This document shows, piece after piece, positions 2,587-47,406 of a stretch of 64,000 nucleotides of DNA. The notes under the pieces are model-generated. The model was not told the DNA's origin. It was given only the letters and a program-made list of their open reading frames with translations, and did not search any database. Source of the DNA: Candidatus Cloacimonas acidaminovorans str. Evry (lineage in GTDB: Bacteria; Cloacimonadota; Cloacimonadia; Cloacimonadales; Cloacimonadaceae); the NCBI RefSeq assembly GCF_000146065.2, contig NC_020449.1, positions 2,146,654-2,210,653 of the forward strand, in the 5' to 3' direction. A program made the position numbers and the translations under genes. Numbering within the stretch: position 1 is the stretch's first letter; each line of letters starts with the position of its first letter.

Positions 2587-4308
2587 ATGGATCAAAACTT
2601 AATAGATCAAATTCGTCGTGCTAACGACATCGTAGATGTTATTCAAGGTTATCTTCCCTTGAAAAGGGTGGGAAGTAACTTTCGTGGTTTATGTCCTTTT
2701 CATAATGATTCTCGCCCTTCGCTTTATGTAAGCCAATCCAAACAGATTTTTAAATGTTTCGCTTGTGGCAAAGCCGGTAATGTAATCGGTTTTGTAGCGG
2801 ACTTTGAAAAGCTGACCTTTATTGAAGCGGTAAAAAAATTGGCTCAGCGTGCCGGTATACAAGTTCCTGAATATGAAAAAACCAAAGTTGTAAATACTAA
2901 AAGGGAACAGCTGTTAAGCGTGTATAAAAGTGCCGCAGAGTTCTTCACTTCCTCGCTTTTTGCGTTTGGGCAGAATGTTTTGGATTATTTGAAAAAGCGT
3001 TCTTTTTCTCCCGAAACGGCTAAAGAACTGCAGTTGGGCTATGCATTAAACAGTGAAAAAGCGCTTTTAAATCATCTCCTGAAAGAAGGTTATAGTGTTT
3101 CTCTGCTAAAGGACTCCGGACTTTTTGGCAATTATGGCGGGGGTTTAACAGACCTCTTTAAAGACCGTTTGATGTTCCCTATTCATAATAGTTTAGGGGA
3201 AGTTATCGCTTTCGGCGGACGCATTCTGGAACCCAAAGAAGGTGTGGGAAAATACATAAATTCACCCGGAACGGAACTATATACCAAAGGCAAAGAACTC
3301 TACGGTTTATACAAAACCAAATACAATATCAGCAAAGCCGGCACAGCTATTATCTGTGAGGGCTATTTTGATTTCCTGCGTCTATACGAAAACGGCTTTA
3401 CCAATTCCGTTGCCAGCTTGGGAACAGCTCTAACGGAAGATCAAATAAATTTACTGGCACGTTTCTGTAATCGGATTATAATATTATATGATGGCGATAG
3501 TGCAGGAATTAAAGCTGCAGTAAGAGCCGGACTTTTATGTTTAAGTAGAGGTATGGAAGTTTTAATAGCTAATCTGCCTGCAGAAGAAGACCCCGATTCC
3601 CTGATCTTAAAACAGGGTAAGATAGCAATGCAAGAAGTTGTAGATAAATCAATTCCCTTAATCAATTTCCTGGCAACCGATCCGCGTCCGGAACAGCCAA
3701 CCGCGGAAAGAATTGAACTGATTTTAGATGCTTTAAGGATATTAAAGGACAGAATTAAACAGGAGCTATTACTGCAAGAGGTCTCCGATGCCTTTGGAGT
3801 TACTGTAGGTGCTTTAAACAGTAAATTACGCCGTAGCAGTGCTTCCGTTTCCGCTGAATCAAGTGAACAAATTGTGCCTCAATACGAAAGCTTTGAAGAG
3901 CGAAATGTTCTTGCTTTGGCACTAAAGGACTATGAATCTTATAAATTACTTGCCAATGACTTGGATTCCAGTTATTTTAATAATAAGCGCTACCGTCAGG
4001 TATATAATTTCCTGATAACTCAAAATCTAAAATCAGAGCCCTGGGAACCGGCAGCCCTGCTTGATAATATTGAAAATAATGAAATAAAGGAAAGCTTAGC
4101 TGAACTTCTTTTTGAGGATTTACAGCAAATGTGTTTTGAAGATTGCCTCTCCGGCTTACGCATCCGTAAAGTCCAAAGGGACTTGGAAGAAATGGATCGC
4201 GCAATTAGCAAAGACCCTAAAAATATGGAACTCCTCAAAGAGAAAGAAAAGCTGGCTCTAAAGTATAGGCAAATGACCAGGAAGGTCGTAAACAAAGTCC
4301 TCTATTAG
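2587..4308 (+). CDS. dnaG: DNA primase DnaG
   Basis: Primase that makes RNA primers at the replication fork, 573 aa from the chosen start. The CHC2 zinc finger is visible (C36, H39, C57, C60: CPFH and CFAC), followed by the RNA-polymerase basic domain and a TOPRIM domain with CEGYFDFL near residue 255 and YDGDSAG near 301. A C-terminal helicase-interacting helical region completes the protein. An upstream in-frame ATG at 2566 would add seven residues; 2587 is preferred because primases start at the conserved MDQ..I-D-I-V segment. Neither start has a strong Shine-Dalgarno. The gene sits between mutS2 and rpoD, a variant of the macromolecular-synthesis operon lacking rpsU. Confidence 0.96.
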   Translation: MDQNLIDQIRRANDIVDVIQGYLPLKRVGSNFRGLCPFHNDSRPSLYVSQSKQIFKCFACGKAGNVIGFVADFEKLTFIEAVKKLAQRAGIQVPEYEKTKVVNTKREQLLSVYKSAAEFFTSSLFAFGQNVLDYLKKRSFSPETAKELQLGYALNSEKALLNHLLKEGYSVSLLKDSGLFGNYGGGLTDLFKDRLMFPIHNSLGEVIAFGGRILEPKEGVGKYINSPGTELYTKGKELYGLYKTKYNISKAGTAIICEGYFDFLRLYENGFTNSVASLGTALTEDQINLLARFCNRIIILYDGDSAGIKAAVRAGLLCLSRGMEVLIANLPAEEDPDSLILKQGKIAMQEVVDKSIPLINFLATDPRPEQPTAERIELILDALRILKDRIKQELLLQEVSDAFGVTVGALNSKLRRSSASVSAESSEQIVPQYESFEERNVLALALKDYESYKLLANDLDSSYFNNKRYRQVYNFLITQNLKSEPWEPAALLDNIENNEIKESLAELLFEDLQQMCFEDCLSGLRIRKVQRDLEEMDRAISKDPKNMELLKEKEKLALKYRQMTRKVVNKVLY

Positions 4309-45895: not shown

Positions 45896-46888
45896 ATGAG
45901 AGCAAAATCAAGCCGGGAAAACCTACTTAAAAGCTTAGAAAAATTGCGCAAAACTAAAATTCTTGTTTATGTTACAGGTGATAGACCTGGATGGGAAACC
46001 CAAATTCATCAGGAAGTACATAGCTTTTTTGCCCACCATTTGGAAAGAATGTCTAAGAGCTCCAAGCTACCAAAGCTATCTTTATTCCTCTATACAAGAG
46101 GTGGAAATACACTTGCAGCTTGGAGTTTGGTAAACCTTCTCCGACAATATTGTAATGAGCTGGAAATTATAATTCCCTCTAAAGCGCATAGTGCAGGAAC
46201 CTTAATGTGCTTAGGTTCAAATTTTATTGTTATGACTAAACAATCAACTTTAGGACCTATTGACCCGAATATTAATACTCCATTAAATCCTGCCGTTCCG
46301 AATATGCCAGGGCATACTATTCCCGTTAGTGTAGAAGCAATTAATGGCTATATAGAATTAGTAAAGAAGGAATTTGGAATTAAAAATGATCAGGCCTTGG
46401 CTGAAGTTGTTAAGGTGCTTTCGGAAAAAATTCATCCTTTGGTTTTAGGAGAGGTGTATAGAGCCAGAGCACAAATAAAGATGCTGGCTAATAAACTTTT
46501 GGATTTCCATATACCAAATGGTAACAAAGAAAAGATTGTAAATTTCCTGTGCACTGATTCCGGTAGCCACGATTATACAATCAACATTGAAGATGCAAAG
46601 GACTTAGGGTTACAAGTTGAAGAAGCTGATAAACGCAATGCGGAATTAATCAATTCCATATTTGAAACGATTTCTCGGCAACTGGAGCTTAATATTCCCT
46701 TTGACCCTAAAAAGTTATTGAATAATAAAGATATGGTAGATTATAATTGTAAAAGAGCTCTTATTCAGAGTATTGAAGGTGGTAAGCATCTGTTTATTTC
46801 TGAAGGTACACTTACCAAACAATGCAATGAGACAAATATCATTATTCATAACACACCTACTTTTGAGGGATGGAGATATGTTAAATAA
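45896..46888 (+). CDS. SDH-family Clp-fold serine proteinase
   Basis: A 330-aa protein of the serine dehydrogenase proteinase (SDH) group, related to ClpP and SppA. Seen: LSLFLYTRGGNTLAAWSLVNLLR (oxyanion GG region), SKAHSAGTLMCLGSN with the probable nucleophile Ser in HSAGT, and LGPIDPNIN. No signal peptide or membrane helix, so it acts in the cytoplasm. It overlaps the next gene, a putative antitoxin, by 11 bases, and a YafQ-like toxin follows. A TATAAT at 45849 lies upstream but without a well-spaced -35. Confidence 0.87.
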   Translation: MRAKSSRENLLKSLEKLRKTKILVYVTGDRPGWETQIHQEVHSFFAHHLERMSKSSKLPKLSLFLYTRGGNTLAAWSLVNLLRQYCNELEIIIPSKAHSAGTLMCLGSNFIVMTKQSTLGPIDPNINTPLNPAVPNMPGHTIPVSVEAINGYIELVKKEFGIKNDQALAEVVKVLSEKIHPLVLGEVYRARAQIKMLANKLLDFHIPNGNKEKIVNFLCTDSGSHDYTINIEDAKDLGLQVEEADKRNAELINSIFETISRQLELNIPFDPKKLLNNKDMVDYNCKRALIQSIEGGKHLFISEGTLTKQCNETNIIIHNTPTFEGWRYVK

Positions 46889-47135
46889 ATCTATAAGTTT
46901 TGGCACTACTACTAATACTGCTAACCAAATTAGTTATTTAGATTATACTAATAGTTCCTTCAGATTTTCCGGTTTCTTTTCTTATAATCAGGAAATCTTC
47001 TTAAAGCTCTTTACTGGAAGTAAACAGCCCCAACCCAATAAAAAAACACTGACAGCTATTGAAGAATCAAAACATCCAGATAACTTACCCGTTTTTAATA
47101 CTATTGATGAACTGCTAAAGAATTTAGAGAATTGA
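46878..47135 (+). CDS. Putative antitoxin of a YafQ/RelE-type pair
   Basis: An 85-aa acidic-tailed protein (MLNKSISFGTTTNTANQ start; PVFNTIDELLKNLEN end). The C-terminus resembles the toxin-binding tails of RelB/DinJ-type antitoxins, and the gene is one base from a YafQ-like toxin gene. I see no clear ribbon-helix-helix in the N-terminal half, so the DNA-binding part, if any, is unusual. The start is inferred from position; it lies within the end of the proteinase gene (11-base overlap), with GGAGAT just before it. Confidence 0.65.
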   Translation: MLNKSISFGTTTNTANQISYLDYTNSSFRFSGFFSYNQEIFLKLFTGSKQPQPNKKTLTAIEESKHPDNLPVFNTIDELLKNLEN

Positions 47136-47136
47136 T

Positions 47137-47406
47137 TTGCTTAAATTAAGCTATACATCTCAATTTAAAAGAGATTATAAGAGATATGAGCATAATAAAA
47201 CAGTTGTTGACGCATTGCAAGAGGCATTGAATAAACTCATAACAGAAATTCCCTTACCGGCAAAATATAAAGATCACCAGCTAAAAGGAAATCTGAATAA
47301 TTGCAGAGAATGTCATTTGACCCCAGATGTTCTACTACTGTATAGAATTCAGGATGAAGTTCTGATTTTAGTTAGAATTGGCACGCACTCAAATTTGTTT
47401 AATTGA
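47137..47406 (+). CDS. YafQ/RelE-family mRNA interferase toxin
   Basis: An 89-aa toxin with the YafQ pattern: LSYTSQFKRDYKRYEHN at the N-terminus, LPAKYKDHQLKGNLNNCRECHLTPDVLLLYRI in the centre (including the conserved H-x-L and D-x-L-L-x-Y blocks) and LVRIGTHSNLF with the catalytic-type His at the end. Relatives cut mRNA on the ribosome. It uses a TTG start one base after the antitoxin stop. Together with the SDH proteinase it forms a three-gene cassette. Confidence 0.88.
   Translation: MLKLSYTSQFKRDYKRYEHNKTVVDALQEALNKLITEIPLPAKYKDHQLKGNLNNCRECHLTPDVLLLYRIQDEVLILVRIGTHSNLFN

Follow-up and report, generated by a model that had tools for sequence, protein, structure and literature searches.

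The region analysed here, a stretch of 64,000 nucleotides from Candidatus Cloacimonas acidaminovorans str. Evry (NC_020449.1, positions 2,146,654 to 2,210,653; hereafter the window), contains a three-gene cassette that we read, with somewhat better than even confidence, as a three-component toxin-antitoxin (TA) system gated by its own ClpP-fold protease, which would recognize an N-terminal segment of the antitoxin. The genes encode a serine protease of the SDH type, a small antitoxin of 85 residues, and a predicted mRNA interferase of the YafQ family. Sequence comparison shows a three-gene unit, a chimeric antitoxin, a partner gene that recurs beside relatives of the protease, and swaps of the toxin. 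The open reading frames (ORFs) bear out the coordinates given in an earlier note on this DNA, together with the 11-base overlap between the protease gene and the 85-residue gene (46878-46888), the single base that separates the stop of the latter from yafQ, and the TTG start of yafQ. Antitoxin and toxin genes are adjacent and co-oriented, and searches for promoter and terminator signals gave nothing beyond chance. In window coordinates, the features are as follows.

45896..46888, + strand: gene for the SDH-type (ClpP-fold) serine protease, 330 residues, PF01972
46190-46192, + strand: codon of the invariant Ser99 of the protease, from alignments of relatives
46568-46570, + strand: codon of the invariant His225 of the protease, from alignments of relatives
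46878..47135, + strand: chimeric antitoxin gene, 85 residues, ATG start, kept in four Cloacimonadota
46878..47009, + strand: N-terminal partner segment of the 85-residue protein, residues 1-44, core TANQISYLDYTNSSFRFSGFF, which replaces the ribbon-helix-helix (RHH) domain
47019..47132, + strand: DinJ/RelB-type toxin-neutralizing tail, residues about 48-85 of the 85-residue protein, from a hidden Markov model (HMM) match
47137..47406, + strand: predicted YafQ-family mRNA interferase toxin gene, 89 residues, TTG start, PF15738

A relative of the protease (E<=1e-5) is encoded in 8 of 125 Cloacimonadota genomes. The order protease, 85-residue gene, yafQ, whose conservation the earlier note had proposed as a check, is found in the four closest: the window's own genome, G008 (86%), G041 (72%), and G019 (68% protease identity). 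Because three other Cloacimonadota genomes share both the genes and their order, the cassette is not a chance assembly. In comparison with locus L003, nonsynonymous divergence (dN) is far below synonymous divergence (dS) for the protease (0.093/1.37), the 85-residue gene (0.203/1.25), and yafQ (0.246/3.73); the 85-residue gene is under purifying selection. Within family f1, YafQ is present only in the four cassette genomes and in G003, where the same site (L063, 1424-1755) holds a remnant. An internal deletion there has taken out the protease along with most of the antitoxin and fused the first protease codons to the antitoxin end (MEPK joined to HPEKLSVYSN). The accompanying yafQ is interrupted by a nonsense codon, which would be expected if YafQ is neutralized by the antitoxin. 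In five further congeneric genomes, the upstream gene is present with no trace of the cassette beside it. The cassette thus occupies a single site within this genus, and at least one loss has taken place.

The toxin, called YafQ-like in the earlier note, clears the curated cut-offs of both relevant models, PF15738 (115.9 bits against 30; 1e-33) and TIGR00053 (91.1 against 87.25). It matches the YafQ structures 4ml2 and 4q2u, and it keeps H47, H60, D64, H84, and F88, the equivalents of the active-site residues of E. coli YafQ. The 85-residue protein is less conventional. Neither it nor the small partners described below belong to any family in Pfam, NCBIfam, PHROGs, or PADLOC, and a search of plasmids returned no relatives of the small protein itself; a hit to phrog_15978 (E-value 0.066) was too weak to be used. 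An HMM of profile length 88, built from 11 antitoxins that adjoin YafQ elsewhere, aligns with each of the four cassette proteins at 18.9-24.7 bits, but solely over profile positions 46-85; positions 1-45, the RHH half responsible for DNA binding and dimerization, are unmatched in every one. By this comparison the protein is a chimera, a DinJ/RelB tail set on a partner-type N-terminus, with the RHH half missing, in agreement with the earlier remark that no DNA-binding motif was evident. Like the type II pair YafQ-DinJ, the cassette has a YafQ-family toxin and a DinJ-type neutralizing tail; unlike it, its antitoxin is without an RHH domain, and hence would lack classical dimerization and operator binding, and an additional protease gene lies upstream. 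The N-terminal half, moreover, evolves more slowly than the tail (dN 0.105 versus 0.331, window against G008).

About 1000 genomes were searched for relatives. Protease relatives at 40-54% identity occur mainly in prophages and viral contigs, and 47 complete E. coli genomes carry one between holin and antiterminator Q. Nearly all relatives are followed by a small ORF whose overlap with the protease stop is typically 4-19 bases; in most cases no toxin comes after it. A coupled ORF of 50-130 residues follows 67 of 67 distinct close proteases, compared with 93 of the 274 (34%) other long ORFs in those loci. When pairs of the small ORFs are compared, dN is well below dS (0.037/0.438 and 0.153/1.495 in toxin-less examples), and they must therefore be viewed as real genes. 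Their products are Ser/Thr-rich and have a common core, seen in L118 (TKGVTYKSYTNSSAPS), L134 (GVGYKPYSNSSAPR), and L102 (TGQHVLYKDYSNSAIG), for which the window counterpart is TANQISYLDYTNSSFR. The earlier note had tied the protease to the TA pair, a tie to be given up should the protease occur without the pair in most relatives. Taken literally, that is the case, since most protease relatives have no toxin; what stands is that the three-gene order is conserved and recurs with other toxins, and the constant element is the coupled small gene, which accompanies every close relative. At toxin-bearing loci an antitoxin either takes the place of this partner or extends it, and the link is between the protease and the antitoxin N-terminus.

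An ORF of 59 residues behind the SDH protease of an E. coli lambdoid prophage (NZ_CP081794.1; L010, 8977-9156) is unannotated in RefSeq. Compared with L024, it is under purifying selection.

The resemblance between the N-terminal segment of the window protein and the phage small partners was evaluated by scoring a partner HMM against each cassette and against 3000 composition-preserving shuffles per cassette. A first test of this motif, based on 26 small partners, did not reach significance, and profile-profile comparison gave about 2% (6-7 of 300 column shuffles); the resemblance became clear only once closer relatives were added. With an HMM of near partners, the scores of the four cassettes are equalled or exceeded by 7, 0, 17, and 6 of 3000 shuffles, respectively, p-values that are indicative, as the near set consists of the loci with the closest proteases, hand-picked after the first tests. 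In view of the motif score and the identical position, the window segment and the phage small partners likely, although not certainly, share a common origin.

Other toxins are found in the same slot. In L102, the protease is followed by a small protein of 113 residues with the motif, and then by MazF (PF02452, 8e-24); the third gene is again MazF in L253 (6.7e-9), and PIN by HMM in L203 and L225 (6e-12 and 3e-7). The third genes of L219 and L221 are RelE-like (TIGR02385 4e-5 and PF15781 0.0016, both under the cut-off). The C-terminal half of the L219 antitoxin resembles that of an AbrB-type antitoxin that belongs to a related RelE toxin (0 of 1000 shuffles, score 68), in a match that lies only outside the AbrB domain, and the L221 antitoxin matches the same protein over a longer gapped stretch (0 of 1000 shuffles). 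In at least two types of antitoxin, the DNA-binding domain appears to have given way to the partner segment: an RHH domain in the window protein and an AbrB domain in L219. Third genes in L200 (2580-3005) and L223 (4364-5098) share a family (BLAST 9e-7; QGDI..., LSHDC/TQTCD) that no Pfam or NCBIfam model matches, possibly a new toxin. On a tree of 65 proteases, the presence of a toxin changes at least six times and the YafQ clade is nested among toxin-less phage proteases. Small proteins are longer where a toxin follows (median 93 versus 63 residues, p=7e-8). A modular architecture of three genes with an exchangeable toxin is well supported by these sequences.

The mechanism that we propose is the following. 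The 85-residue protein would hold YafQ in check through its DinJ-like tail, and its N-terminal 44 residues, short, Ser/Thr-rich, and apparently unstructured, would be the cognate partner segment of the protease; elsewhere a separate small protein, the segment here takes the place of the usual DNA-binding domain. A cue would activate the protease; given the prophage setting, phage infection would be a fitting one. Once active, the protease would bind this segment and then clip the antitoxin or degrade it, so that YafQ is freed and translation stopped. Elsewhere, the same module of protease plus segment has been joined to MazF, PIN, and RelE-type toxins. Recognition is the simplest role for the segment because the protease always carries it and it has been moved onto a labile inhibitor; binding, proteolysis, trigger, and defence function are what we infer from this arrangement. 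More broadly, we regard it as an even call that a ClpP-fold protease with a short recognition peptide makes up an undescribed class, a portable sensor or trigger module of prophages and chromosomes, into which unrelated toxins (YafQ, MazF, PIN, RelE-like, and one unnamed family) have been plugged through fusion of their antitoxin tails to the peptide, the two-gene form being the module alone.

Several observations weigh against the proposed mechanism. With the full, more divergent partner set, the motif test is weaker (134, 11, 33, and 194 of 3000 shuffles), and the motif similarity is short and of low complexity. Loci at middle distance (L203, L219, and others) have no recognizable N-terminal motif, and position is their sole link. 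Among the third genes, that of L222 is PIN-like by eye only and that of L221 scores below cut-offs; sequence comparison of these two toxins with solved structures gave no meaningful match, and the L102 tail, compared with two MazE antitoxins, gave no significant result. The PADLOC 2.0.0 defence models match neither the window proteins nor their relatives. Since most protease relatives are without a toxin, the pair of protease and partner must also act alone. Finally, both protease activity and cutting of the antitoxin are presumed here.

Among the alternatives, the most serious, although we consider it unlikely, is that the primary toxin is the protease, with the small partner as its inhibitor, the three-gene form fusing that inhibitor to a second antitoxin such that one loss would free two toxins. 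The two-gene form, protease plus small partner without a toxin, is by far the commonest, and with its overlapping genes and its prophage moron position (L010) it resembles a TA pair; inhibition of the protease by the segment would fit this form equally as well as recognition does. However, the gene order puts the supposed antitoxin second, and toxicity of the protease is presumed. The two interpretations are compatible, because an inhibitor can also be a substrate.

The protease scores 57.3 bits against PF01972 (SDH_protease, cut-off 31.3), which upholds the earlier assignment to the SDH family, and its AlphaFold2 model (predicted local distance difference test, pLDDT, 88.4; predicted template modelling score, pTM, 0.84) has the ClpP fold, the closest folds (Foldseek/VIA) being the NfeD 1510-N protease and ClpP, with Z about 13. 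It has the fold and catalytic Ser of SDH-type ClpP-like proteases (PF01972/NF047768), but against the NCBIfam equivalog NF047768 (Clp_like_SDH) it reaches 75.6 bits, far under the 250-bit cut-off, and PHROGs assigns it to phrog_11747 (6.4e-60), a divergent prophage subfamily of unknown function. Ser99 and His225 are invariant in every relative aligned, including distant ones with different toxins. A catalytically idle scaffold or chaperone, stabilizing the antitoxin through its N-terminal segment until a phage product displaces it, would not need these residues, and we consider that explanation improbable. SecB-like chaperones do play an antitoxin-stabilizing part in toxin-antitoxin-chaperone (TAC) systems, and a short, apparently unstructured segment, with translational coupling that would favour co-folding, would suit such a role.

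A C-terminal (E)GW motif at protease residues 324-326 (46865-46873) is conserved in the alignments of relatives, its Trp invariant even in distant ones. The motif sits past the PF01972 match, in what is confidently predicted to be a beta strand.

Two further alternatives are each very improbable. Under the first, a phage protease for head maturation (a ClpP-like prohead protease) would have been domesticated together with a small protein resembling a scaffold; profiles of head-maturation proteases do match weakly (NF045542, 3.6e-5) and many loci are in phage contigs, but the E. coli prophage (L010) has a separate HK97 prohead protease, with its SDH gene in the moron site on the strand opposite the late genes, and no capsid gene adjoins the window cassette. 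An ordinary YafQ-DinJ pair with a protease adjoining by chance and an antitoxin N-terminus that has merely diverged, suggested by the ordinary YafQ and DinJ-like tail and by the toxin-less phage relatives, is already disfavoured by an order held in four genomes down to 68% protease identity, by an absent RHH half and an N-terminus that is the better conserved half, by independent fusions with MazF, PIN, and RelE-like toxins, and by a YafQ that in family f1 exists only with the cassette or its remnant.

For a protease-gated system, the nearest precedent is the ImmA/COG2856-Xre type. A three-component TA system in which a COG2856 zinc protease cleaves the Xre antitoxin of RelE or PIN toxins was predicted in Makarova 2009 (PMC2701414), and RosmerTA (PMC10440598) and PD-lambda-2, HigB with an Xre-peptidase (PMC9519451), are such systems with phage defence. 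These share with the cassette a dedicated protease tied through the antitoxin to RelE/PIN-type toxins, often in a prophage, and proposed to cut the antitoxin or repressor. However, ImmA/COG2856 proteases are zinc metallopeptidases that usually carry a fused helix-turn-helix (HTH) domain, whereas the cassette encodes a ClpP-fold serine protease as a separate protein, and its antitoxin has swapped its DNA-binding domain for a protease-partner segment. Pfam and NCBIfam give the cassette proteins no match to an HTH or to a metallopeptidase such as the HEXXH zinc type. The two should be considered analogous, not homologous. The hyperpromiscuous antitoxin domain Panacea (PanAT; PMC10440598) likewise combines one module with many unrelated toxins, but the domain is different and no protease gene is involved. 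In open-access papers, with subscription journals and preprints outside the scope of the search, we found no report of SDH-family proteases with toxins, and there is a fair chance that the cassette represents a class of its own.

Release of type II toxins has long been disputed, as many antitoxins are degraded by the general proteases Lon and ClpP with no obvious trigger. In the present case, protease, recognition segment, and antitoxin are genetically bound and the toxin is exchangeable, so that release can be tested directly, both in vitro and in E. coli. The cassette also provides a first functional handle on phrog_11747 and its unannotated partner gene.

Two other loci deserve mention. An ordinary RHH antitoxin-YafQ pair lies in another Cloacimonadota genome (L064, 1492-2090); its YafQ is 49% identical to that of the window, and the pair is a useful control for the domain swap. 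A possible further effector, with a membrane-like segment at its N-terminus, is encoded after a distantly related SDH protease and the small partner of that protease in L079 (G178; 2975-3562 of the reverse complement, reverse strand).
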